A stretch of 64,000 nucleotides of DNA from Anaerolineaceae bacterium (GTDB lineage Bacteria > Chloroflexota > Anaerolineae > Anaerolineales > Anaerolineaceae), in the NCBI GenBank assembly GCA_017417055.1, contig JAFPZX010000174.1, positions 62,001 through 126,000 of the forward strand. Reading direction: 5' to 3'. The position numbers and the translations under genes were made by a program. Positions 23,035 through 34,598 of this stretch are shown here, piece after piece. The notes beneath the pieces are model-generated. The model worked only from the letters and a program-made list of their open reading frames with translations, did not search any database and was not told where the DNA came from. Every line of letters begins with the position of its first letter. Positions within the stretch are counted from its first letter, which is position 1.

Positions 23035-23050
23035 TGGCATATTTCTTGCA
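23035..23050 (+). promoter_or_regulatory. Sigma-54-type -24/-12 promoter for the small secreted peptide
   Basis: TGGCATATTTCTTGCA: TGGCA (23035-23039), 6 nt, TTGCA (23046-23050). The -24 GG and -12 GC are at exactly the canonical separation. A transcript would start near 23061, at the first base of a 12-bp perfect stem. Confidence 0.6.
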
Positions 23051-23060
23051 ATAATTCTTT

Positions 23061-23152
23061 TTGTTGGATAATTGTATTTCAGCCCGGAGAAGCTGACTTG
23101 CCAAAAAGATTATCCAACAAGAGAGATTCCCCGGCTTTCGGGGAAAGTAAGG
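23061..23152 (+). promoter_or_regulatory. Structured 5' leader of the small secreted peptide
   Basis: TTGTTGGATAAT (23061-23072) pairs perfectly with ATTATCCAACAA (23109-23120), enclosing a second stem TCAGC/GCTGA. A separate hairpin TTCCCCG/CGGGGAA (about 23127-23145) follows just before AAGGAG. This could be a stability element or a riboregulator; it matches no riboswitch consensus that I know. Confidence 0.5.
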
Positions 23153-23162
23153 AGAAAACGGA

Positions 23163-23291
23163 ATGAAAAAAAGTGTCGTTTTAACAGCACTGCTGTGTCT
23201 GTTGATTATTTTTCAGGGGTGGTCCGCACCGTCAGCGGTTGATGGAACAGACAAGAAACATCATCACACTGAACAGAATCCTCTGAACTAA
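23163..23291 (+). CDS. Small secreted peptide (42 aa), unknown function
   Basis: AAGGAG lies 9 nt before the ATG. The peptide starts MKKSVVLTALLCLLIIFQGW, a classical signal peptide with a probable cleavage site after WSA or SA-PSA. That leaves roughly 20 residues, AVDGTDKKHHHTEQNPLN, including three consecutive histidines that could bind metal. It has its own sigma-54-like promoter, a structured leader and a strong terminator 30 bp downstream, so it is a complete single-gene unit. I recognise no family. A signalling peptide, a metal-binding peptide or a short leader with no function of its own are all possible. Confidence 0.6.
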   Translation: MKKSVVLTALLCLLIIFQGWSAPSAVDGTDKKHHHTEQNPLN

Positions 23292-23319
23292 GCTTTCTCT
23301 CCAATTGATTACCTTATGA

Positions 23320-23347
23320 AAACCCGGGCATTGTGCCCGGGTTTTTC
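23320..23347 (+). terminator. Terminator of the small secreted peptide gene
   Basis: Stem AACCCGGGCA / TGCCCGGGTT, loop TTG, then TTTTT. Confidence 0.85.
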
Positions 23348-23458
23348 ATATATTTTTTAGTGTTACTGTTCCCATGTGCGGAACTGAGCAACGGAATACA
23401 GCCTTCTCATGTGCGTCATAGCAATATTGACAAAAGCGTGAATAATAACCTTGAACAG

Positions 23459-23543
23459 ATTCAGTACTGAATCAAAACGACCTGTTCTGTTGACTCAATT
23501 TTGCGTCATCAAAAACAGGTCACTCTGACTCATTCTGAATAGT
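23459..23543 (+). repeat. Family C palindromic repeat, copy 2
   Basis: Runs from TTCAGTACTGAATC through GACCTGTTCTGTTGACTCAA and AAAAACAGGTCACTCTGACT to CATTCTGAATAG. It lies between the peptide terminator and the nrdJ stop, in a gap between convergent genes. Confidence 0.75.
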
Positions 23544-23580
23544 TTAATTACTATATCTTTAATCCTTCACGTGAGGGATA

Positions 23581-26193
23581 TCAGCACTCCGAATACCCAC
23601 AGGAATAGCATTTTCTGCAGCCTTCCTCATTGATCACCGTCGCCTGACCACATTCCGGACAGATGTCGCCGATTTTCAGCATAGGGGAAGTCGCCGGTTC
23701 AAATGGCTTTTTTTCCGGTTCATTTTCCGGCTGCGGATGTGTATGTCCCGACCGCAGTTCATCCAGCAGAGCCTGCTCTTCCAGGCGCTCCTCACGTTCA
23801 CTCAAGTATTCCTGAAAAGTGTGAGCCAATCCATCCGGCAGGGAAAGAACCCGCTTGGCACCAAAACCAAGGGAGCGGCTGCCACCAATACCACGCAGCT
23901 GGGCAGCTACTTCTTCCAGACGTGCTTTCGGCTCAATCGGAGAAGCCAGCCGCAGCACATAGGAAACCAGACGGCCGATAGCTTCGGAAACGGCAGAGAT
24001 TTCAGTTCCGGCCTTAGCGGTATTGATAAAGATTTCGAAAGGCTGGTTCCCGCCATTTTCGTTGATCGTAATGAACGCTTTCCCTACCGGTGTATCAGAA
24101 CGATAGGTAAAACCGTGCAGAGAATGTGGACGAGCCTTTTTCTTATCATGCCAGAGCGGCATTTGAGCCTGTTCCGGTTCAGCGACCTTTACTTCTGCCG
24201 GAAGCACTTCCGCGCCTTCCTGCTTGCTTTCCATGGTGGATTTCGTTTCAAGAACCACCTTATCACGTGACCCTGTCACATAAACGGTTGTCCCTTTGCA
24301 GCCAAGTTTCCAGGACTGCATATAAACCTTCGCCACATCATCCACCGTTGCCCCGGCCGGAAGGTTGACCGTTTTGGAAAGGCTGTTGTCCACAAAAGCC
24401 TGCAGAGCAGCCTGCATCCTAACGTGCTCTTCCGGTGTAATATCGGAAGACACAACAAAGGTATTGCGGATGGATTCTGGCAGATCTTTGATGTTCTGGC
24501 AGGTGCCTTCATTCATGACCTGCTCAACGATTTCCTGACGTTTTTTCTCATCCATACCGCTTGCCTTCAAAGCCTTGTCAAACAGCGGGCTGGCATACGG
24601 AAGCAGAACGTCTTTGCCGTTGTCATTCATATGACGGATATAAGCCAGGGCAAAAGCCGGTTCACAGCCATACCCTTCACATCCGGTAACAGTCGCGATG
24701 GTCCCGGTCGGTGCGATGGTTGTTTGCGCGGCATTACGGATCCCGTGAGCCTTAATTCCTTTAGTGACCTCATCCCAATGGATTTCCGGACGGCCAAAAT
24801 TCCGGGTATACGGCTTGAGCGGAAGCGGATGCGACCAGCGGAAATTTTCGGCATCATAAATAGAGCCTTTGATTGCGGGGAAAGAACCGCGCGCCTGTGC
24901 CAGTTCAACACTTTGTTTCATGGCATGATAACGGACAAATTCCATTACCTGACCGGCAAATTCCTGTCCTTCGTCGGAGCCATAACGAATACCACAATTG
25001 AACATCAAATCGCCAAGGCCCATGATCCCCAGACCGATACGGCGTGCACGCAGGGCTGCTTCCCGCAGCTGCGGGACTCCCGGAACATAACCGTTTGCAT
25101 CAATCACATTGTCGAGAAAGCGTACTGCGGTTCTGGTTGTCTGCTCAAGTTTCGCCCAGTCGACCTTGCCGTCTTCTGTGGCGTGCTGTGCCAGATTGAT
25201 GGAGCCAAGACAGCAGTTTTCATATGGACCCAGCCACTGTTCACCACAGGGATTGGTAGATTCCAGGCGATACAGATGCGGAACCGGGTTATAGCGGTTT
25301 GCCTGATCGATAAAAAGAACGCCCGGCTCGCCATTATGGTGTGCCTGTTCAACGATCTTATTGAACAAATCCCGTGCTTTGATGGTCTTGTAGACTTTAA
25401 TGCGGATCCCCGCTTCACGAGCCTGGTCCACATCGCCGTCAAAATCTTTGCTGAGAGGGTCATCCAGATCCGGATAAACCAGATCCCAATCCGCGTCTGC
25501 CTCAACAGCCTGCATGAATTTATCGGTGATCCCTACTGAAAGGTTGAAATTGGTAATTGCTGTTTCACTGGTCTTGCAGGTAATAAAAGCCTCAATATCC
25601 GGATGGTCCACACGCAGCACAGCCATATTGGCCCCGCGTCTTGACCCGCCCTGTGCAACTTCACCAAAGGCATGGTCATAAACCCGCAGGAAACCGATTG
25701 GACCGGTTGCCTGACCCGCACTGGAACGGACGATAGACCCTTCCGGACGCAGCCGGGAAAAGGAAAAACCATTCCCGCCGCCGGTCTGCTGGATCAATGC
25801 GGCATTGCGTAAAGTCTGGAAAATACCCGATTCCTTTTTCCCCATATCATCGCTGATCGGGAGCACAAAACAGGCTGCCAATTGGCCCAAAGGGGTACCG
25901 GCGCCGGTAAAAGTCGGGGAATTCGGGAAAAATTGCCGGTTCGCCAGCATCTTGTAATAGCGAACCGCGGTCTGCATAACGTCTCCGCCGTAGGACTCTT
26001 CAGCGCGGGCGACATGATATGCCACACGCCAAAAAGTTCCGTCAACTGTTTCCGCCGGTGTTCCATCCACATTCCGCCGAACATAACGTTTTTCGAAAAC
26101 CTTGCGGGCATTCTCGCTCATTTCAATGGATGGTAAACCTTCCGGCAGCGCAGGAAATTCCAGCGTGCCGTCATTATGCAGCCTTGTATCCAT
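23581..26193 (-). CDS. nrdJ: Adenosylcobalamin-dependent (class II) ribonucleotide reductase
   Basis: 870 aa. It reduces ribonucleotides to deoxyribonucleotides without oxygen, using a B12-derived thiyl radical. Visible landmarks are [11 protein letters not shown] (redox Cys of the pair), [29 protein letters not shown] (Asn-Cys-Glu active-site triad) and [19 protein letters not shown] (phosphate loop). The C terminus has a zinc ribbon (CPECG, CRKC) ending in CGYSEC, the swinging cysteine pair. A region from about 680 matches the TSCPD domain ([24 protein letters not shown]). It lies 192 bp downstream of nrdR on the same strand, with paired NrdR boxes before nrdR, so NrdR control is likely. 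Confidence 0.95.
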
Positions 26194-26278
26194 AACTCTC
26201 TCCTCACTGATTCACCAAACCCGGGAGGTATTGTCATCCCTCAAACCAAATCTGATGAATTATGTTTTTTATTTTTTA

Positions 26279-26356
26279 CGAGGACTGTTCCTTTATGGGA
26301 CTGTCCCAATGGTATTTCCAATTAGCAGGGGACTGTCCTTTTATGGGACTATCCCG
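26279..26356 (+). repeat. Two tandem family D repeats between nrdJ and nrdR
   Basis: Copy 1 (26280-26308) AGGACTGTTCC, CTTTAT, GGGACTGTCCC; copy 2 (26328-26355) GGGGACTGTCC, TTTTAT, GGGACTATCCC. Each half is itself a palindrome. They lie in the nrdR-nrdJ intergenic region and would appear in a read-through transcript. Confidence 0.75.
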
Positions 26357-26384
26357 ATATATTCCATCTGCTGATCGATGCACT

Positions 26385-26837
26385 TCAAACTTCATCAAGC
26401 AGTTTGTCGATCTCACTGCGCAGCACATGCAGGTCATCCATGCGCAAATAAACGATCGCGTAACGAAGGTAAGCGATAAGGTCAAGATTCTTCAACCCTT
26501 CGATAACCAGATCACCGATCATCCGGGAAGGAACTTCATATTTTCCTTCCATTTGAAGACGTTTTTCAATGCTGTCAACTAATTCGCTGATCTTTTCCGC
26601 AGGCACCGGACGCTTTGCACAGGCAATACGGATCCCATGGGCAAGTTTTTCTGAATCAAAAACTTCCCGTTTTCCATCAGACTTTACAACCATGGGAGTT
26701 CCCAGAAAAGGACGTTCAAAGGTGTTGAAGCGTTTTTTGCAGACCGGGCAGTACCGTCTTCGCTGAAGTTTTCCATCTTCCGGTTTTCCGGTAAAAACCA
26801 CATTTGTTTTTGGATTTCCGCAAAATGGACAGTTCAT
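26385..26837 (-). CDS. nrdR: Transcriptional repressor NrdR
   Basis: 150 aa, typical length. An N-terminal zinc ribbon (MNCPFCGN with CPVCKKRF) precedes an ATP-cone (GTPMVVKSDGKREVFDSEKLAHGIRIACAKRPV) and a short C-terminal helix region (YLRYAIVYLRMDDLHVL). NrdR senses dATP/ATP through the cone and represses ribonucleotide reductase operons through pairs of NrdR boxes. Two boxes lie about 90-120 bp upstream. nrdJ follows on the same strand. Confidence 0.95.
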   Translation of the reverse strand: MNCPFCGNPKTNVVFTGKPEDGKLQRRRYCPVCKKRFNTFERPFLGTPMVVKSDGKREVFDSEKLAHGIRIACAKRPVPAEKISELVDSIEKRLQMEGKYEVPSRMIGDLVIEGLKNLDLIAYLRYAIVYLRMDDLHVLRSEIDKLLDEV

Positions 26838-26920
26838 AACACCTCATATCTGGTAGCTTCAGCAATAAAAAATCCCCATCCGGGGTAACAAGTATTATTT
26901 ACTTAATCACTTTACGAATA

Positions 26921-26964
26921 ACTATATTTAGTGTTTGTTATTCGTTGTCTTTAGTAAATGTAGC
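26921..26964. promoter_or_regulatory. nrdR: Pair of NrdR boxes upstream of nrdR
   Basis: Box 1 around ACTATATTTAGTGT (26921-26934) matches the NrdR consensus ACACTATATWTAGTGT read on either strand. Box 2, TTAGTAAATGTAGC (26951-26964), is weaker. Their centres are about 31 bp apart, three helical turns, which is the spacing known for NrdR boxes. Confidence 0.6.
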
Positions 26965-27090
26965 TCTATTCTAACATAAAAAACAAAAAATGCAAGGAAA
27001 AACTGACATTTTGATTTCCCCGCCAAAGCCCCTGGTTACGATTCGCGGAGATGCTGACGGGGACTTTCACCGGCGGCTCAGACCAGAGCC

Positions 27091-27150
27091 AGAGGGGACT
27101 GTCCTGTTTTCCAGATCATCTAAGGGACGGTTCCGGAGTAACCGTCCCAT
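27091..27150 (+). repeat. Family D-like palindromic repeats
   Basis: GAGGGGACTGTCC is followed 13 bp later by GGGACGGTTCCGGAGTAACC and GTCCC, a hairpin related to the one at 3478. It is in the 466-bp gene-free stretch between nrdR and the next coding gene, which otherwise holds the NrdR boxes and the short-word repeat below. Confidence 0.55.
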
Positions 27151-27196
27151 TACAGGAACCTGAAAATTGCGCTGAAAGCCCTCTTCCAACGCTTTT

Positions 27197-27302
27197 TCAA
27201 AATCTATCCCCTATATCCTATATCCTATTGCCTATATCCTATATCCTATTCCCTAAAACCAGACACCTGAAACCTGAAACCTGACACTTGACACCTGAAT
27301 GA
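27197..27302 (+). repeat. Degenerate short-word repeat (ATATCCT / ACCTGAA type)
   Basis: Repeated words CTATATCCTATATCCTAT, then CCTGAAACCTGAAACCTGAC. The unit is about 7-9 bp and imperfect, unlike a CRISPR or a clean microsatellite. It ends at the stop of the 223-aa gene. The ACCTGAAACCTG words recur near 45.25 kb. Confidence 0.7.
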
Positions 27303-27303
27303 C

Positions 27304-27975
27304 TCACCCGATGTCTTCGAACTGCTGCAGGAATTGACGAATTTCACCGGACATCTTCGGATAAACCTCACAGAATCTGCTGTCGTTCACCAGTTCCCGC
27401 ATTTCCTCTTTTGTAAAGGAGTAAGCAGCCTGTCCTTCCGGAACATTGACCGAACTGTCATTTCTTTGCGCCGCTCTTGTGAGGATTTCAACCCAATGAC
27501 GATCTTCCGGTTTGAGAATTCCGTCAAGCGCGGCAGGAATGTTCTGCTTATCAGTGCAAGGCGCGGGTGAATTCAGAAGCGCGGGTGTCATATTCGGCAT
27601 CTGCTCGTCGGTTTTCACATGTTTATTTTCCGCGGAATCCCGTTTGTCTGCTGCCGGATTTCCGGGCTGAAATTCTTTTAATGGACTGAAAGCGTTAGCC
27701 TGGCGAAACGCAGAGACTTCATGATTTTTTGAGCTGAAGTCACATTTTTCTTTCGGTTGTGAGAATGCCATTCCGCTGTGATAGGGTCCCCAGCTTTCAT
27801 TGCCGTCTATGAAGTCATAATGGTATTTCTTTATTTTCGCTTCCGTGGCACGCAGACGTTCCAGCAGATTGTAATAGCGGAACTGCAGCTCCAGCAGCTC
27901 ATCGTTCATTTCCTGCTTTTCTTGAATGTATTCGCTCAATGCACGATCGATCTTGCGGAAATGATGGGATGCCAT
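27304..27975 (-). CDS. Hypothetical protein with N-terminal coiled coil (223 aa)
   Basis: Residues 5-55 are rich in Leu, Glu, Lys and Arg in a heptad-like pattern (ALSEYIQEKQEMNDELLELQ), suggesting a coiled coil. Residues 60-145 are polar and low in hydrophobics, probably disordered. Residues 150-223 look folded, with DRHWVEILTRAAQRN and a final helix (EIRQFLQQFEDIG). I recognise no family. It lies 12 bp downstream of the 115-aa gene on the same strand, so the two probably act together. No signal peptide or membrane segment is present, so it should be cytoplasmic. Confidence 0.6.
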   Translation of the reverse strand: MASHHFRKIDRALSEYIQEKQEMNDELLELQFRYYNLLERLRATEAKIKKYHYDFIDGNESWGPYHSGMAFSQPKEKCDFSSKNHEVSAFRQANAFSPLKEFQPGNPAADKRDSAENKHVKTDEQMPNMTPALLNSPAPCTDKQNIPAALDGILKPEDRHWVEILTRAAQRNDSSVNVPEGQAAYSFTKEEMRELVNDSRFCEVYPKMSGEIRQFLQQFEDIG

Positions 27976-27987
27976 CCGGTAAAGTTT

Positions 27988-28335
27988 TTAAGTCGTCAGC
28001 TGACTGAGTTCCGGGAAAGACTGTTCATTCTTTTCCAAAGCGATCTTGGTCAGGCAGCTGCCCGCAAGATAGCGGATCCTTTTGTCCAGCTGAACGGCGG
28101 TTTTGAGATATTGGGAGGAATGCCGGTTATATTTGACGGCCAGATAAAATATGTCATCAACCCTGTTAAGCATTTTCAATGACATTTCACTGAACAATAC
28201 GGCATCGGTTCCGTATTCTTCAAGCGTCTCAAACGGCAGCGAACTGTCCGCGTCCGCGGATGCATTCTGCTCGGTGCAGTCAGTCAGAACCTGATCCAAT
28301 TCTTTCAGCAGCTCTTCACCGTTTGTCTGTGCCAT
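27988..28335 (-). CDS. Hypothetical helical protein (115 aa), paired with the 223-aa gene
   Basis: The start at 28335 is chosen because GGAGG lies about 11 nt upstream; the longer frame from 28389 runs into a family C repeat. The sequence is acidic at the N terminus (GEELLKELDQVLTDCTEQN) and helical after residue 50 (SLKMLNRVDDIFYLAVKYNRH, TAVQLDKRIRYLAGSCL). No family is recognised. It is transcribed ahead of the coiled-coil gene. Confidence 0.6.
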   Translation of the reverse strand: MAQTNGEELLKELDQVLTDCTEQNASADADSSLPFETLEEYGTDAVLFSEMSLKMLNRVDDIFYLAVKYNRHSSQYLKTAVQLDKRIRYLAGSCLTKIALEKNEQSFPELSQLTT

Positions 28336-28373
28336 CTCCGGTTTCCCTCCTTTCCTTGATTTTTTTATTGTCT

Positions 28374-28457
28374 GTTCTGAATGAGTCAAAGTGACCTGTT
28401 TTCGTTGACTCAGACTTGAGTCAACAGAACAGGTTGCATTGACTCAGTGTTGAAGAA
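28374..28457 (+). repeat. Family C palindromic repeat, copy 3
   Basis: TTCTGAATGAGTCAAAGTGA, CCTGTTTTCGTTGACTCAG, CTTGAGTCAACAGAACAGG, TTGCATTGACTCAGTG. It begins 39 bp upstream of the 115-aa gene start. Confidence 0.75.
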
Positions 28458-28486
28458 TTTTGTTTTGCGTCTATTCAGGAACGAGA

Positions 28487-28527
28487 CTGTCTCCGCAGAC
28501 TCGGTATTAAGTCGGAGGGGACTGTCC
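28487..28527 (+). repeat. Family D-like palindromic repeat
   Basis: GACTGTCTCCGCAGACTCGG followed by GTCGGAGGGGACTGTCC. It is the second element in the 809-bp gap between 28336 and tRNA-Arg, which also holds the structured block at 28.7-29.04 kb. Confidence 0.45.
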
Positions 28528-28724
28528 GAAACTGCATATGAAGTATGATTTCCGCTCAATTTTTGAACAGTTGCATTTGAGATATCAACTCTTTTTATCT
28601 CAATTATATTGTTATTTTTATTCTATTTGTCTTTTCTAATTTGTCAATAGTATTCAACGCAATTCTAACAAAAACATGACAAAAGTCACATTGCTCTTTG
28701 TTAGCCGCGCACAGGAAACTGACA

Positions 28725-29045
28725 TTCTGTGCTTCATGAAGCACGATGGGGCCAGCTGCCCGATGTCGCGCAGCCACAAGGGGGCGAAGCTCCTGCTCTG
28801 CATATAAATCCAGACGAAGTCTGTACATTACAGAGCAGGGGCCTCTCGTGCGCCGCTGAGGAAGAAAGAGCGGTGTTTTTCCGGAGGACGATCCGAGGAT
28901 GTTGAAGAGACGCACATGAGGACAGAAGCCTGTGCGGGCTTTGCCGCAACAGGCAGCTGCGAAAGCCCCGGCTCCGTAAGGAACGGGCTTCGCCCATAGA
29001 AATCGAAGCCGGAGCTGCGCCTCCATGTGCTTCGTTCTAACAGTT
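28725..29045. other. Hairpin-rich, G+C-rich non-coding block (possible structured RNA)
   Basis: In about 320 bp I can pair at least six stems: GTGCTTC/GAAGCAC (28729-28744), CCTGCTCTG/CAGAGCAGG (28792-28839) enclosing CAGAC/GTCTG, CCGCT/AGCGG, GCCTGT/ACAGGC enclosing GCGG/CCGC (about 28928-28954), AAGCCC/GGGCTT, and CGAAGC/GCTTCG (about 29004-29034). The block is distinctly G+C-rich between A+T-rich flanks. Long frames cross it on the minus strand, but their proteins are full of Arg, Cys and Ser with no recognisable domain, so I do not call a gene. The end GAACGAAGCACA is shared with a family A repeat (44.67 kb). Confidence 0.5.
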
Positions 29046-29096
29046 AAATCAAATCTTTTATGACAAACCGGTTTTGTCATAAATTTATAATTTCTC

Positions 29097-29125
29097 TTGA
29101 CGAATTTGAATGAGGGGTGTATAAA
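29097..29125 (+). promoter_or_regulatory. Promoter of tRNA-Arg
   Basis: TTGACG and TATAAA about 17 nt apart, ending about 20 nt before the tRNA. Confidence 0.6.
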
Positions 29126-29144
29126 TATAAAGTCGTTAGGAAAT

Positions 29145-29218
29145 GCCCTCTTAGCTCAATTGGATAGAGCGTTTGCTTGCGGAGCAAAAGGTTGGGGATT
29201 CGAATTCCTCAGGGGGCG
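29145..29218 (+). tRNA. tRNA-Arg (anticodon GCG)
   Basis: 74 nt. Acceptor GCCCTCT (29145-29151) pairs with AGGGGGC (29211-29217). The D arm is TAGCTCAATTGGATAGAGC. The anticodon arm TTTGC-TTGCGGA-GCAAA has anticodon GCG at 29179-29181, which reads CGC (and CGU if A34-edited, which GCG is not). The T arm contains GATTCGAAT. No CCA is encoded. A promoter and terminator flank it, so it is a single-gene unit. Confidence 0.95.
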
Positions 29219-29221
29219 CTG

Positions 29222-29248
29222 AAAACCGGTCAAATAGCCGGTTTTTTG
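29222..29248 (+). terminator. Terminator of tRNA-Arg
   Basis: AAAACCGG / CCGGTTTT stem with loop around TCAAATAG, followed by TTTTTT. Confidence 0.8.
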
Positions 29249-29258
29249 CTTTAAAATA

Positions 29259-29386
29259 CTAAGGAAATGCTGATTAATAGCCATTTTACATGAAAAGAGT
29301 CAATGTAACCTGTTCTGTTGACTCATTTTTGAGTCAACGAAAACAGGTCACTTTTGACTCAGGCGAATTAATCAGCGCTTCCTTAG
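29259..29386 (+). repeat. MITE-like element: family C core with terminal inverted repeats
   Basis: Ends CTAAGGAAATGCTGATTAAT (29259-29278) and ATTAATCAGCGCTTCCTTAG (29367-29386) are near-perfect inverted repeats. Inside lies a family C palindrome (ACCTGTTCTGTTGACTCA / TGAGTCAACGAAAACAGGT). Flanks read AAAATA and ATACGA, so a short ATA or TA target duplication is possible. It sits between the tRNA-Arg terminator and the metallopeptidase remnant. Confidence 0.75.
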
Positions 29387-29938
29387 ATACGAAAGCCGGA
29401 AGATCGGAACGGGATCGGAAATTCGGCAGCTCCTATTTATCCGAAAATTCAGATTTTTCCGGAACCCACGAATTGGGCCATATTTTGGCAAGTACTCTGA
29501 TCGATACAGATAATAGTAAGACGGCCAATAAACAGCAGAACACTCATTTGAAAGAGTCTTCTGTCATGAAAAGCGTCTTTAGCAATCCGGATGTCATGCC
29601 CGAGGATTATTACAAAAATCTGAAGCGTTATACAAAAAAAAGACTTGGCAAAAACGCGGAATGACGATGGGGCCACTGGAATTGTTGAAGGCGCAATCAA
29701 TTCCAAAAATAACGACCTTTTCAAAAATGGCTATACTTCCCGTTACGGGGCAGAATCTCCAGGTGAGTTCTTCGCGGAAGCCTTCCATGATGTTTACGCC
29801 AACGGAAACAAAGCAAGAAAGGCCAGTATTGCCACTGTTCAGGAATATGAGAAACGACAGAAGACGCTCACTACAAAGAAATTCTTCCGCAAAAAGCGAG
29901 GCCTCTGGAGGAGATTCAAGAACTGGCTGAAGATGTAA
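29387..29938 (+). pseudogene. Frameshifted remnant of a phage/MuF-type metallopeptidase domain
   Basis: Frame 1 holds FSGTHELGHILASTL, an HExxH-type zinc site (HELGH), and runs to a stop at 29664. The next frame continues with NDDGATGIVEGAINSKNNDL, then YGAESPGEFFAEAFHDVYANG, whose EFFAEAF is the usual place for the third metal ligand. One base appears lost near 29660, where GAATGACG would read GAA-AAT-GAC with an added A. The intact form would be a C-terminal metallopeptidase or toxin-type domain of a phage head-associated protein. The 5' end is missing, replaced by the MITE-like element. The remnant ends in a basic tail (KKRGLWRRFKNWLKM). Confidence 0.6.
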
Positions 29939-29975
29939 ATTTCCGTGGCACGTGGAGTGAGATTGTCCGAATATC

Positions 29976-30644
29976 TTATTCAGCTGTCTGCTGAGTCTGA
30001 TACCAGTCGCAAATATCGTTGAGAAAGCACTCACCGCACTTTGGTTTCCGCGCATCGCACAAGCGTCTGCCCAGCAAAATCAGATTGATATGAGCCGGAC
30101 CGTAAACAGCAGGATCAAAAAGGTCAAGCATCAGCATATGCGTTTGCGTCACATCCGCCTTTTCCGGACGCAGCCCCAGCCGCCCGGTCACGCGGTAAAT
30201 GTGTGTATCGACAGGAAAAGCCGGCATTCCCAGCGAAAACACCATGACGATCGAAGCTGTTTTCAGTCCGACACCCTCAAAAGACGTCAGCCATTCACGT
30301 GCCTCCTCGGGAGATTTTTCTTTAAGAAAAGACAGATCATAATCAGGAGCCACCGCGGAGATCGCACGCAGTACTTTTTGAATCCGAGGCGCTTTCTGGT
30401 TCGCCAGTCCCGCGTTGCGAATACATTCAATCACATTTTCCGTCGGCGCGTCCCGCACTTCATCCCAGGTGGGATAAGTTTCTTTCAATTTTGCAAAAGC
30501 GATATCACGGTTGCGGTCATTTGTGTTTTGTGAAATGATCGTATTGACCAGCTCGTCAATCGCCGGCAGGGTGTTCCAATCCGGCAGCCCCCAATGTTCC
30601 AATATTCGATCATAAATAATCCCTGCTTTTGCTTTTGCGTCCAT
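29976..30644 (-). CDS. nth: Endonuclease III-type DNA glycosylase/AP lyase
   Basis: 222 aa. Helix-hairpin-helix LTSFEGVGLKTASIVMVF (about 118-135) contains the catalytic Lys; FPVDTHIYRVTGRLGL (about 142-157) holds the catalytic Asp. The C terminus has the Cys-X6-Cys-X2-Cys-X5-Cys iron-sulfur cluster (CDARKPKCGECFLNDIC). It removes oxidised pyrimidines from DNA and cuts the abasic site. ISQNTNDRNRDIAFAKL near residue 37 is the family's usual ILSQQTTD region, a little diverged (LSQNT is common in the archaeal/Chloroflexi branch). The symbol is by family; a more specialised EndoIII homologue is possible. Confidence 0.9.
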   Translation of the reverse strand: MDAKAKAGIIYDRILEHWGLPDWNTLPAIDELVNTIISQNTNDRNRDIAFAKLKETYPTWDEVRDAPTENVIECIRNAGLANQKAPRIQKVLRAISAVAPDYDLSFLKEKSPEEAREWLTSFEGVGLKTASIVMVFSLGMPAFPVDTHIYRVTGRLGLRPEKADVTQTHMLMLDLFDPAVYGPAHINLILLGRRLCDARKPKCGECFLNDICDWYQTQQTAE

Positions 30645-30667
30645 ACTGCTCTCCCGATGTCTTTGTT

Positions 30668-30756
30668 CTAAAGAAAGTCTGATTACCCTGTCTGAGTAAA
30701 AACAGGCTGCATTGACTCATTCAACAGAAAAAAGCCATTAATCAGCGTTTTCGTAA
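30668..30756 (+). repeat. MITE-like element, second copy with terminal inverted repeats
   Basis: Ends CTAAAGAAAGTCTGATTA and ATTAATCAGCGTTTTCGTAA, with a partial family C core (AAAACAGGCTGCATTGACTC). It lies 24 bp upstream of nth and would be in its leader or promoter region. Confidence 0.65.
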
Positions 30757-30783
30757 TAATTATACATGAAGTAAATATCGTTT

Positions 30784-30799
30784 TGGCACGAATATTGTT
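30784..30799 (+). promoter_or_regulatory. Sigma-54-like element, imperfect
   Basis: TGGCACGAATATTGTT: a full TGGCACG -24 block with the -12 block reading TTGTT instead of TTGCA, at the right spacing. It lies about 195 bp upstream of the lysozyme gene, ahead of a perfect copy. Confidence 0.35.
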
Positions 30800-30824
30800 A
30801 TCTATGTAAACATACTGAAAGAAA

Positions 30825-30894
30825 AAGCTGAAAATTGAGAAAACTAAGTATCAATCAGCTTTTCCGACAGAAATAACGGATTCTTAAAGAATCC
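30825..30894. promoter_or_regulatory. Inverted repeats upstream of the lysozyme promoter
   Basis: AAGCTGA (30825-30831) with TCAGCTT (30855-30861), and GGATTCTTAAAGAATCC (30878-30894), a perfect palindrome. Their centres lie about 95 and 50 bp upstream of the -24 element, the range used by sigma-54 activators. Confidence 0.4.
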
Positions 30895-30935
30895 GGGAAC
30901 AAAAATGATTATTTGTTCGTTTATATAGGATAAAC

Positions 30936-30951
30936 TGGCATAATAATTGCA
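30936..30951 (+). promoter_or_regulatory. Sigma-54-type -24/-12 promoter of the GH25 gene
   Basis: TGGCATAATAATTGCA: TGGCA (30936-30940), 6 nt, TTGCA (30947-30951). The transcript would start near 30963, giving a leader of about 16 nt with AGGAT before the ATG. Confidence 0.55.
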
Positions 30952-30978
30952 ATAATAATAGACAGGATACAAAAAGTT

Positions 30979-31662
30979 ATGAGCAGATTACGTGCGTTGG
31001 GAGTAGATATCAGTTTCTGGCAGGGGAAACCGGATTTTGAAAAAATGCGGAAAGCCGGGGCGTCTTTCGTTTATGTAAAAGCCAGCCAGAACCTTTGGGA
31101 AGATAAATCCTTCCGGCACAATTGGGAAGGCGCGAAGGCCGCCGGACTGCTGCGCGGAGCCTATCATTTTTATGATATGCGCGAAGGGTCCGATACGCCG
31201 AAGCGTCAGGCTGAATATTTCGCGAATCTGCTCGCTGACGATCCGGGAGAATTACTTCCCGCCATGGACTTTGAGAGCCCCGGAATCGCCGGTTATCCGG
31301 ATTATCCTGATCATGACCAGTGTGATAAGATCGTCCGGCAGTTTTCGGATAAAGTAAGGCAGATTTTGGGATATACTCCCATCCTTTACACGAACCTTGC
31401 CGGCATCACAAAACTGGATCCGCTGACCGAAATGGTAAAAAATATGGAATTGTGGATCGCCTGGTACAATCTGAAGGCCCACCGTCCGAAGTACGGCGTG
31501 TGGTCTGACTGGCGAATTTGGCAGTACAAATCCACCGGTGACGGGATTGCATTTGGGGTTGAATCCAAAGGTCTTGACATGAACGCGTTCAATGGCACAG
31601 TTGAAGATTTATATGACTATGCCAACGGGCTTGGAATGTCAAAGCGGAGATTAACATTGTAG
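30979..31662 (+). CDS. GH25-family lysozyme (muramidase)
   Basis: 227 aa, a complete GH25 barrel. GVDISFWQGKPDF (about 8-20) gives the first catalytic-site Asp, FVYVKASQN and RGAYHFYDM follow, and LLPAMDFES (about 93-101) has the DxE catalytic pair. WIAWYN and WRIWQYKSTG complete the fold. It would cut the beta-1,4 bond between N-acetylmuramic acid and N-acetylglucosamine. No signal peptide is present, so it is either released by lysis, exported otherwise, or phage-derived; nearby lies a phage-type remnant. The sigma-54-like promoter and its three-hairpin 3' region are unusual for a lysozyme. Confidence 0.9.
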   Translation: MSRLRALGVDISFWQGKPDFEKMRKAGASFVYVKASQNLWEDKSFRHNWEGAKAAGLLRGAYHFYDMREGSDTPKRQAEYFANLLADDPGELLPAMDFESPGIAGYPDYPDHDQCDKIVRQFSDKVRQILGYTPILYTNLAGITKLDPLTEMVKNMELWIAWYNLKAHRPKYGVWSDWRIWQYKSTGDGIAFGVESKGLDMNAFNGTVEDLYDYANGLGMSKRRLTL

Positions 31663-31670
31663 AAAACATA

Positions 31671-31797
31671 GTTGGGACGAAAACTCTCTCTCTCCTTACA
31701 TCGTCCCAGGGTATCTATGTTTCGTTTCGTTCTCTCTCCAAGAACGAATTTCTAACCATTGTCATGAGGGCGTCCTTCTCCGGGGCGCCCTCGACAA
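31671..31797 (+). other. Three consecutive perfect hairpins downstream of the lysozyme gene
   Basis: TGGGACGA/TCGTCCCA (31673-31680 with 31701-31708), TTCGTTCT/AGAACGAA (31726-31733 with 31741-31748), and TTGTC...GAGGGCG / CGCCCTCGACAA (31759-31797). The loops of the first two are pyrimidine tracts (CTCTCTCTC). No T-run follows, so this is not a simple terminator. Confidence 0.55.
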
Positions 31798-31801
31798 TTT
31801 A

Positions 31802-31975
31802 ATTTATAAGACTTATGATGTATGATGTATGACCTAAGACATATGACGTTAGACGTATGATGAGTGATGAAAGCCGTATGACGTATGATTAATCTAAAAG
31901 ACGTATGCTGTATGACCATACCGTTCGGTAATAATCATCCAACATACGTCATTCGTCGAATTTCATAGGTCGTAA
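31802..31975. repeat. Degenerate short-word repeat (ATGATGTATGAC type)
   Basis: Words such as ATGATGTATGATGTATGACC and GACGTATGATGAGTGATG recur, with CGTATGA/TCATACG on both strands. The block is 319 bp from the previous gene to DUF47, with no other feature than the hairpins. Confidence 0.6.
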
Positions 31976-31981
31976 TACAAA

Positions 31982-32611
31982 TTACGTATTTTTCATAATT
32001 ACAGATTCAACCGTGTTGGCAAGGTCCTCGATATCATCCATTACGGTTTCAAGGCAGGAATAAAGCTCTTTTACAGACATAAGCACTTTCGGATCGTTTT
32101 CATTTACAAACAGGTCATGCATCCCCTCTCTGTAAAGACGGTCACCGGTTTCCTCATGCTTGTTGATTTCAATGATGATTGGGGAAATACTCTGATCCTT
32201 TTTGAAGTTTTCGAATTTCTTCAGCAAATCGAGCAGCAAATTCACACTTTTTTCAATGAGGTCCATATATTTCAGAACAACATCATCGACCTGCTTGATA
32301 TCGTATTTATAGCAGGTAACCATGATATCTTCGATGCAGTCGGTCAGATTATCCAGCTCCTGAGCCATCAGAACGATATCTTCCCGTTCCAGCGGTGCGA
32401 TGAACTCCTTTATCAGGTGTTCCATGATGTCATGCTGAACCTGGTCGGCTGCGTGTTCAATACCGTGAAGTTCGATCAGGTTATCTTTTATGTCATCATG
32501 TTTGTAATTGTGAAGCAATTCAGATGTTTTGGCAGCCAGATCACAGCTGAATTTACATTGTGAAACAAAGCTGTCAAAATAATACGCGTCCCGTTTATTA
32601 TTGCCAAACAT
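31982..32611 (-). CDS. DUF47/PhoU-like phosphate-transport accessory protein
   Basis: 209 aa, all-helical. The repeated segments ELHGIEHAADQVQHDIMEHL and EREDIVLMAQELDNLTDCIEDIM, plus ELYSCLETVMDDIEDLANTVE, are the three-helix E/D-rich patches of DUF47, which bind metal clusters in PhoU-like proteins. It commonly regulates a neighbouring PiT transporter; here the PiT gene lies 87 bp upstream on the same strand. GGAG precedes the ATG. Confidence 0.88.
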   Translation of the reverse strand: MFGNNKRDAYYFDSFVSQCKFSCDLAAKTSELLHNYKHDDIKDNLIELHGIEHAADQVQHDIMEHLIKEFIAPLEREDIVLMAQELDNLTDCIEDIMVTCYKYDIKQVDDVVLKYMDLIEKSVNLLLDLLKKFENFKKDQSISPIIIEINKHEETGDRLYREGMHDLFVNENDPKVLMSVKELYSCLETVMDDIEDLANTVESVIMKNT

Positions 32612-32698
32612 TTATATCTTCTCCTCTGATAAATCGATTAGAAAAATAACTGTACAGGTACATACACTTTTCCAATGATTTCTGTACTGAATAATTGA

Positions 32699-33751
32699 TT
32701 AGAATATGTGAATAAAAACCTTCGCCATCAAATATCCGATCAAACCGGCGCCGGGAAATGTCAGAACCCATGTCATCACCATCTCCTTTACAATGCCCCA
32801 GTTCACGGAAGAAAACCGTTTTGCCGCGCCGACACCCATCACAGCAGTGGTTTTGCATTGTGTGGTGGATACCGGCAAGCTTAGCAGTGTTGAGATCAAC
32901 AAACAAATGGCTCCGGAAGTATCCGCGCAAAACCCCTGATATGGTTCGAGCTTTACCATATCCATTCCAACAGCTTTAATAATGCGGTATCCGCCGATGG
33001 AAGTTCCGAGCCCCATCGTAAGAGAGCATAAGATCATCAGCCAGAGCGGAATGGTAAAAGACTGCACATTCGGATTTCCTTTTGCCAGGAATGCTCCCAG
33101 CATAAAGACCCCGATGAACTTCTGACCATCCTGAGCACCATGCATAAAAGCCATGGCTGCTCCGCCGAAAACCTGAGCGCGGCGGAAAAAGGTCATGGTT
33201 TTCGGTCTTTCAATGTCACGGCATATTTCCGTAACAATTTTGGCTACCAGGAAACCAATCCCAAACCCGAGAATGGATGAAAGAACCAGACCGTAAAGAA
33301 CCTTGACCCACTCAGAACCATTGATAGCACGGAAACTGCCATGCAGTGCAATAGCCGCACCGGAAATACCGGCAATCAGCGCATGGCTTTCACTGGTAGG
33401 AATTCCGAAAAACCAGGCCGCAACAGCCCAGGTGACAATGGCAACCATGGCAGCACATAAGGCAACCAGAGCGTCATGCGCATCTCCGCCGAAATCGACC
33501 ATATTATAGATTGTCTCGGCCACTTTCGCATTAAAAGCCGTCATCACTACTACACCCAAGAAGTCACAAACAGCAGCCATCAGAATCGCTTTCCGCGGAT
33601 GCATGGCTCTTGTGGAAACACAGGATGCGATAGCATTTGGAGAATCCGTCCAGCCATTTACGAAAATCACACCTAAGGTCAATATCACAGTGATCGTGAA
33701 CGGCAGATTCGTTGTAAATTGGGTTATAAAATCTGAAAAAGTTATTGTCAT
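32699..33751 (-). CDS. Inorganic phosphate transporter, PiT family
   Basis: 350 aa, about 9-10 helices in two inverted PD001131-type repeats. NGWTDSPNAIASCVSTRAM (about 32-50) and GVGAAKRFSSVNWGIVKEMV (about 303-322) are the repeat signatures, with FMHGAQDGQKFIGVFML (about 207-223) as the second core motif. It carries phosphate, probably with cation or proton symport. Its partner DUF47 follows. A TATAAT lies 16 nt upstream of the ATG, giving a leader of about 9 nt. Confidence 0.9.
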   Translation of the reverse strand: MTITFSDFITQFTTNLPFTITVILTLGVIFVNGWTDSPNAIASCVSTRAMHPRKAILMAAVCDFLGVVVMTAFNAKVAETIYNMVDFGGDAHDALVALCAAMVAIVTWAVAAWFFGIPTSESHALIAGISGAAIALHGSFRAINGSEWVKVLYGLVLSSILGFGIGFLVAKIVTEICRDIERPKTMTFFRRAQVFGGAAMAFMHGAQDGQKFIGVFMLGAFLAKGNPNVQSFTIPLWLMILCSLTMGLGTSIGGYRIIKAVGMDMVKLEPYQGFCADTSGAICLLISTLLSLPVSTTQCKTTAVMGVGAAKRFSSVNWGIVKEMVMTWVLTFPGAGLIGYLMAKVFIHIF

Positions 33752-33879
33752 AGTTCAGCACACATAAATTATAATTATGAGATTATAAAGTATTCTATCA
33801 TAGAAACTGATTATTTTTATAAAAACAAGAGGAAAATATTAGTGGTTATGTTACTAATCGTTACAAATCAGATTAAACA

Positions 33880-33902
33880 AAAAAACCCGGAAACCCGGGT
33901 CT
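33880..33902 (-). terminator. Terminator of the 125-aa secreted protein gene
   Basis: On the minus strand ACCCGG / CCGGGT with loop GTTT, followed by TTTTTTG. Confidence 0.75.
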
Positions 33903-33924
33903 TTTTGTTTATAAATTATATTGA

Positions 33925-34302
33925 TTAGCTGTGGGCAGGAACGTACTGAGGAGCGACATAATCGCGGTACAGAGCTTCACGCAGATAGAACTCAGCCATA
34001 TCGAGCAGTTTGTTAAAGTCGGGAGCACCGCTGACAGCCTGGTTTGCATAATCGAGGCAGGCATTGAGTTCATCGCCACGATATTCACCCTTAGCAGCCA
34101 ATTCGCGCATACCGGCATAAACAGCCGTGCGCAGTTCAGCTAAGCCTTCATTCGCCAATTCTTTGCGACCATTGTCCAAAGCAAAGCGAATCTTTTCAAT
34201 AGCGACAACACCATCAGAATACGGAGAAGCTGAGGCTGATGCCACAACGCCGAGAATCATCGCGGCCAACACAAAAAGAATAAGGATTGTAGATTTTTTC
34301 AT
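33925..34302 (-). CDS. Secreted protein of 125 aa, unknown function
   Basis: The signal peptide MKKSTILILFVLAAMILGVV ends near SASA-SPY. The mature part is helical and soluble (AIEKIRFALDNGRKELANEG, DELNACLDYANQAVSG, KLLDMAEFYLREALYRDY). It is reminiscent of small DUF-type helical secreted proteins but I recognise no family. The start at 34302 has AGGAAG upstream; a GTG at 34308 is an alternative. A TATAAT lies about 80 nt upstream, and a terminator follows, so it is a single-gene unit, divergent from the LiaF-like gene. Confidence 0.7.
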   Translation of the reverse strand: MKKSTILILFVLAAMILGVVASASASPYSDGVVAIEKIRFALDNGRKELANEGLAELRTAVYAGMRELAAKGEYRGDELNACLDYANQAVSGAPDFNKLLDMAEFYLREALYRDYVAPQYVPAHS

Positions 34303-34437
34303 GCTCACTTCCTTTCACCTTTAGAACATAGAATGTCTAAGGGTTTCTACAAATTCAAGAGTATTATACACGATATTCCGGATTTAGCAAGAAAATAGTG
34401 ATTTTTATTTCCAACTTTGTATTTTTTACCAAACCGG

Positions 34438-34472
34438 CATAATGAATAACAACATTGTCTTTATTCATTATG
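34438..34472. promoter_or_regulatory. 12-bp perfect inverted repeat 115 bp upstream of the LiaF-like gene
   Basis: CATAATGAATAA (34438-34449) and TTATTCATTATG (34461-34472), spacer 11 nt. The centre is about 115 bp before the -24 element at 34570, typical for an enhancer-binding site of a sigma-54 activator. Confidence 0.45.
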
Positions 34473-34569
34473 ACTTGATTATACACCTTTTTTTTATTTT
34501 TTCTTGATTTTGTTTACATTATCCTTTACGATTCATAAACTTTATGGAAAAGTAAATAAAATAATATTA

Positions 34570-34585
34570 TGGCATGCAATTTGCA
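34570..34585 (+). promoter_or_regulatory. Sigma-54-type -24/-12 promoter of the LiaF-like gene
   Basis: TGGCATGCAATTTGCA: TGGCA (34570-34574), 6 nt, TTGCA (34581-34585). It overlaps the first possible ATG of the open frame (34569), making the ATG at 34599 the likely start. Confidence 0.55.
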
Positions 34586-34598
34586 ATTTATAGCTAAT

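Follow-up and report, generated by a model that had tools for sequence, protein, structure and literature searches.

Sigma-54 has been described as a controller of the bacterial exterior, and the same article notes sigma-54 and its activators in some Chloroflexi, with no description of a regulon in the passages concerned (PMC3162934). Activators that combine a receiver with an AAA+ domain and lack a helix-turn-helix (HTH) domain form group 5 of the bacterial enhancer-binding proteins and, in the relevant sections of two papers, are represented by FlgR of Helicobacter and CtcC of Chlamydia (PMC7175178, PMC3162934). The sigma-54/CtcC regulon of Chlamydia trachomatis, as excerpted, contains many membrane and secreted proteins (PMC7482065). 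In Sinorhizobium both sigma-54 promoters and leaderless transcripts were mapped, and the two are not joined in the sections of that report concerned (PMC3616915). Neither HTH-less activators nor a role of sigma-54 in controlling the exterior is new. The order-wide form set out below was not found in the open-access papers searched: among those listed on Anaerolineae, Chloroflexota or Flexilinea together with sigma-54, no title or abstract opening describes such a regulon. Here we analyze a 64,000-nt stretch from an Anaerolineaceae bacterium (GCA_017417055.1, contig JAFPZX010000174.1, positions 62,001 to 126,000; hereafter the window), in which three copies of the motif TGGCA-N6-TTGCA precede genes for a 42-aa peptide, a GH25 muramidase and a LiaF-like protein. 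Taken together, the three sites are very probably sigma-54 promoters. It is also quite probable, judging from the sequence, that they belong to a genome-wide, mostly cell-surface regulon controlled by a single activator.

The assembly is a 4.4-Mb draft in 200 contigs, 85% complete and with 5.5% contamination. By activator sequence, the closest named records are metagenome-assembled genomes of gut Chloroflexi (83-93% identical), one of them labelled Flexilinea, a genus of Anaerolineaceae in the Chloroflexota. The genome encodes an RpoN with all three Pfam domains (AID, core-binding and DNA-binding) and, two genes downstream, a strong AAA+ activator match. A sequence-only reading of the window had named a lack of rpoN as one of two results that would refute its sigma-54 interpretation. 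The unit comprises, on the same strand, rpoN and the genes for a PAS histidine kinase (631 aa), the receiver-AAA+ activator (391 aa), a small membrane protein (102 aa) and a TPR protein (885 aa). In the whole genome PF00158 has one strong match, this activator (E 7.5e-69); four weak matches have E values of 1e-7 to 6e-6, and such weak matches occur in all 14 control genomes. The activator carries the sigma-54 contact loop GSFTGA. Its AAA lid reaches residue 389 of 391, which leaves no space for a C-terminal HTH. In its domain composition, the adjacent kinase gene and its standing as the only strong activator match, it resembles FlgR and CtcC. A possible difference from these is that here it lies directly after rpoN and the kinase gene in a unit that starts at a putative sigma-54 site, at 41 loci within one Chloroflexota order. 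It should be added that the 885-aa protein (L026:6056-8713, minus strand; G000:C89) has N-terminal TPRs and a C-terminal part that appears caspase- or gingipain-like by eye, and that this part has no Pfam match at 1e-3.

In total, 61 genomes of the order, the own genome included, were searched; 53 had an RpoN match, and 57 had an activator match at 1e-20, some of these being other AAA+ proteins. The 41 loci come from the own genome and from 40 of the 52 other RpoN-bearing genomes, in which rpoN and the activator gene lie together on enough contig. As a rule (39 of 41), the activators are 387-411 aa long and lack an HTH; of the other two, one is a fragment and one comes from a gene that continues into N. 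All 41 contain a Walker B core of the LDEI type. Twenty-one have the contact loop GAFTGA and six have GSFTGA; three relatives' activators of the 41 share the loop GAFTDA that a passage on FlgR reports (PMC3162934). A small membrane protein (80-140 aa, by our own rule) follows the activator at 32 loci. An apparent fusion of the two in G043 (L275) was rejected, since its frame passes through a stretch of N.

The unit itself starts at a site of the same type. In the own genome this site, TGGTACAATTCTTGCA, lies 42 nt ahead of rpoN. A site with at most one mismatch was found 36-121 nt ahead of rpoN at 37 of 38 usable loci, the own one included (23 exact, 14 with one mismatch), and the 38th has two mismatches. 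Two loci, L256 and L268, were dropped because rpoN is cut by the contig end, and L275 was too short; the one-mismatch site of L248, counted among the 14, is ambiguous, a control spacing scoring equally. At six other spacings the same upstream regions gave no exact match and three one-mismatch matches in 240 trials. At 18 of the 41 loci a further exact site was seen where the activator gene ends, before the position of the small protein (other spacings, 0 of 246).

We found 19 matches to TGGCAY-N5-TTGCA in the own genome, against a mean of 2.1 for the 20 other spacings between N0 and N20 (Poisson p ~1.5e-12). Sixteen of them lie no more than 170 nt ahead of a same-strand start, if the 42-aa peptide is counted as a gene. 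With a crude caller of open reading frames (ORFs), 12 sites were intergenic, and six of the other seven could be read as falling in over-extended starts or short spurious ORFs. Among genomes without an rpoN match, G047, of the same order and 99% complete, had all 10 examined sites (of 12) inside ORFs, and the single site of G060 was intergenic. A reversed-pattern control (0 matches vs 19 in the own genome) was rejected as a weak control for composition, since G047, which has no rpoN match, also exceeds it (12 vs 1), and was replaced by the spacing control and by the position of sites relative to genes. Apart from N5, the largest count belongs to TGGCAY-N14-TTGCA, with eight genome matches compared with about two for most spacings; this excess is unexplained.

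Within the window, an exact search of both strands recovered the three copies, all on the plus strand and at the coordinates reported by the sequence-only reading (Table 1), and no other. Each has the sigma-54 hallmark of GG at -24 and GC at -12 at fixed spacing. That reading expected about 0.1 copies by chance; dinucleotide shuffles give a higher mean of 0.29. Two of 100 shuffles reach three exact matches, and the window evidence alone is therefore suggestive to moderately convincing. When one mismatch was allowed, nine matches were seen against 6.7 expected, a non-significant excess. The window count is of moderate weight, and the genome-wide spacing control is decisive. The clustering is mild: in a post hoc test, three of 19 random sites fell within 11.55 kb in ~1.8% of simulations. 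A matrix built from 68 promoter sites in related genomes (repeats partly collapsed, a few omitted, one input string identical to the own rpoN promoter) ranks the GH25 site, site 1 and the LiaF site first to third and an imperfect copy at 30784 fourth, the next window match scoring 9.6 bits. In 30 first-order Markov copies of the window, the mean number of matches of at least 14 bits was 0.47 and the top score was 18.1. The distance from the 3' end of the site to the start codon is 112 nt for the 42-aa peptide, 27 nt for GH25 and 13 nt for the LiaF-like protein, which corrects the range of 24-130 bp given earlier. The proposal that all three genes encode envelope or secreted proteins applies to GH25 by family only, since by our own hydrophobic-N-terminus rule this protein has no signal peptide. 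Sigma-54 transcripts start about 12 nt after the -12 C, and a distance of 12 nt was used to place the predicted +1 positions.

Two of the three sites are conserved in every genome of the genus that was examined. A site was found within the upstream 250 nt of the GH25 gene in all 14 genus genomes, the own one included (nine exact, five with one mismatch), across which GH25 protein identity drops to 57%, and a site was found ahead of the LiaF-like gene in all 14 as well (five exact, nine with one mismatch). At six other spacings, the best match per upstream stretch of these genes has 2-5 mismatches. The sequence-only reading suggested a local regulon, which is corrected here to a genome-wide one. 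A regulon held together by synteny was rejected as well: in G006, G012 and G005 the LiaF-like and GH25 genes are on different contigs and each keeps its own site, and in G013 the two genes remain together. At the LiaF locus, the first in-frame ATG lies 11-15 nt past the site in all 14 genomes, giving predicted leaders of 1-5 nt, and a motif of Shine-Dalgarno type is absent ahead of the ORF in 13. The LiaF-like mRNA should therefore be leaderless, and we predict leaderless transcription of this gene from its sigma-54 promoter as a conserved trait of the genus. If so, promoter position would be linked to the start codon, which makes for a sharp prediction.

The Pfam families of the targets include O-antigen ligase, N_BRCA1_IG (two), papain, subtilase, sortase, Chlam_PMP repeats, GH25, LiaF-TM/DUF4097, FtsZ and a winged-helix response regulator; no family was assigned to three proteins, and a 158-aa protein has only a sub-cut-off match. 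Export-type N-termini, by our own hydrophobic-N-terminus rule, were present in 11 of 16 targets and in 24 of 112 background genes (p 2.6e-4), where target starts were chosen by hand and background starts, which include the window's own genes, by script. For these statistics C167:30816 and C195:43746 were dropped, having no callable gene within 500 nt, and tandem sites were counted once. The cell-envelope theme of the sequence-only reading is thus borne out as an enrichment, and it has to be widened to FtsZ, the response regulator, the 158-aa protein and RpoN. Sites ahead of an FtsZ-type N-terminus were found in the own genome (G000), in G006 and G013 of its genus, and in G025 of another genus, 24 nt ahead of a gene whose Tubulin match is below the cut-off on 60 residues; the regulon may thus include cell division. 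One secreted protein is preceded by two exact sites at a distance of 85 bp (L018:1501-1516 and 1586-1601), and in G004, G006 and G012 a protein resembling it likewise has tandem sites upstream. A site pair was also observed in G005. The exact site at G000:C167:30816-30831 has a dnaA-type gene 521 nt downstream, with only a 51-aa ORF between them.

The targets share the theme of exterior control that passages of PMC3162934 develop. As in C. trachomatis, there is one HTH-less activator and the targets are rich in membrane and secreted proteins; the chlamydial regulon concerns type III effectors and the developmental cycle, whereas here, in another lineage, it covers proteases, sortase, GH25, the LiaF-like protein and FtsZ, with a site ahead of rpoN.

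Since the activator lacks an HTH and is encoded beside a kinase, as in the FlgR/CtcC type, one phosphorelay probably fires all promoters jointly. A signal would reach the PAS histidine kinase, which would phosphorylate the receiver of the activator at Asp53. The AAA+ ring would then assemble and, without an HTH, act from solution on any sigma-54 polymerase poised at a -24/-12 site. The sequence shows the sites and their conservation, the order of the genes, the lack of an HTH and which genes are targets; transcription, phosphorylation, activation from solution, joint firing and the signal are inferred. Such joint, enhancer-free firing is likely; rpoN would feed back on itself, and the output would consist of exported papain- and subtilisin-type proteases, sortase and Ig-like proteins, of glycan and wall enzymes (O-antigen-ligase-like, GH25), of the LiaF-like envelope protein from its leaderless mRNA, and of FtsZ. 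For the Anaerolineales as a whole the chances seem about even that sigma-54 is largely a single-input switch, in which an autoregulated unit of rpoN, kinase and HTH-less activator, often with a small membrane protein, fires all promoters and rebuilds the surface and part of the division machinery, one genus making its LiaF-like mRNA leaderless. If this holds, the regulon could be read from sequence, given one sigma factor, one activator and no enhancer, and the surface programme of uncultured Chloroflexota could be predicted genome by genome. It would also allow a natural test of what keeps an activator specific when it does not bind DNA, a situation otherwise known, in the excerpts cited above, from Chlamydia and Helicobacter.

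It is very improbable that the sites arose by chance and that the genes are transcribed from ordinary housekeeping promoters. The shuffles that reach three copies and the lack of a clear one-mismatch excess in the window agree with chance; the spacing control, the persistence of two of the three sites in every genus genome examined and the fixed distance to the ATG at all 14 LiaF loci do not. It is unlikely, though of more weight, that the sites are sigma-54 promoters whose specificity is set by separate DNA-bound regulators or enhancers, with no joint firing of the regulon. A TTCGTT block ~20-30 nt upstream of the GH25 site (30900-30935) is kept in the own and four close genomes and makes a further regulator possible; the genome holds other regulators, the winged-helix response regulator is itself a target, and some relatives have a second activator candidate. 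Against such regulators stand the single strong PF00158 match and an activator with no room for an HTH. In 34 rpoN promoters there is little information at fixed positions upstream of -24, which agrees with enhancer-free activation from solution; enhancers at varying positions would still be compatible with it. We also consider it rather doubtful that the bias toward exported proteins is an artefact of a few related surface families duplicating together with promoter and signal peptide. The leader and signal peptide of site 1 do have similar counterparts in G006, on a long secreted protein, the target starts were hand-picked, and FtsZ, the response regulator and rpoN are targets too; the exported or membrane targets nevertheless span papain, subtilase, sortase, N_BRCA1_IG (two), Chlam_PMP repeat, O-antigen ligase and LiaF families.

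Several other observations, like the TTCGTT block, weigh against a genome-wide regulon with a single activator. Outside the genus, the GH25 site was found with 0-1 mismatch at three of 13 homologous loci, at one of which (L175) a control spacing scores nearly as well, and the LiaF site at none of eight. Fourteen of the 41 activators deviate from GAFTGA or GSFTGA, and the second AAA+ candidates occur within the family. Five of the 16 targets are not of the export type. Of the 19 sites, the one belonging to ftsZ lies 299 nt from that gene and within the last part of the gene before it, and two others have no ORF within 500 nt except those of 51 and 56 aa. The own assembly is a contaminated draft. 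Finally, five of nine sites in G021 and four of 10 in G030 were scored as intergenic, although neither genome gives an RpoN match, and the site count was rejected as a marker of rpoN across relatives because it is not clean. In G021 rpoN may be missing from the assembly, since the activator lies near a contig end; in G030 neither RpoN nor the activator was matched.

Table 1. Features of the window and sites ahead of FtsZ-type genes; promoter assignments and +1 positions are predictions
Feature	Position	Strand	Remarks
Putative sigma-54 promoter 1 TGGCATATTTCTTGCA	23035..23050	+	exact match, 22.9 bits; predicted +1 at 23061
Structured leader (predicted)	23061..23145	+	60-nt hairpin 23061-23120, second hairpin 23127-23145, both before the ribosome-binding site
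42-aa peptide, mostly a signal-peptide-like stretch	23163..23291	+	
Terminator-like hairpin with T run	23323..23346	+	seen by eye, then located
Imperfect -24/-12 site TGGCACGAATATTGTT	30784..30799	+	13.3 bits; possible weak second GH25 promoter
Putative sigma-54 promoter 2 TGGCATAATAATTGCA	30936..30951	+	exact match, 24.2 bits; predicted +1 at 30962
GH25 muramidase, 227 aa	30979..31662	+	PF01183, E 6.6e-37
Putative sigma-54 promoter 3 TGGCATGCAATTTGCA	34570..34585	+	exact match, 20.4 bits; predicted +1 at 34596
LiaF-like protein (LiaF-TM + DUF4097), 394 aa	34599..35783	+	PF22570, PF13349; predicted 3-nt leader
FtsZ-type gene sites	L016:1501-1516; L094:1501-1516 (-)		

Of the three sites, site 1 has the weakest support, with a conserved counterpart in one other genome only. 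In the search of the genus this was G006, where an exact site and a leader of two hairpins precede a long secreted protein whose signal peptide is related; the 42-aa peptide is 59% identical over 29 aa to that signal peptide. The own genome contains a similar stretch elsewhere, without a good site in the part that was scored. The site-1 leader is more stable than expected (z -3.9; none of 200 shuffles equally stable). Its stem starts at the predicted +1 when folding begins at 23061; the hairpin was rejected as proof of the start site, since folding from 23035 adds a few base pairs to the stem on the 5' side of 23061. No Rfam family matched the leader at the gathering score, and a laxer search gave ten sub-threshold matches.

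The imperfect fourth copy at 30784, pointed out in the sequence-only reading, proved to be real: it is kept in the own genome and the four close genomes aligned with it, with a -12 element of TTGT in three and TTGA in two. Two intergenic stretches on the same strand, 23500-23545 and 30690-30725, are similar to each other by eye, with TGACTCATTC after AAAACAGG in each, and lie near two of the three sites.

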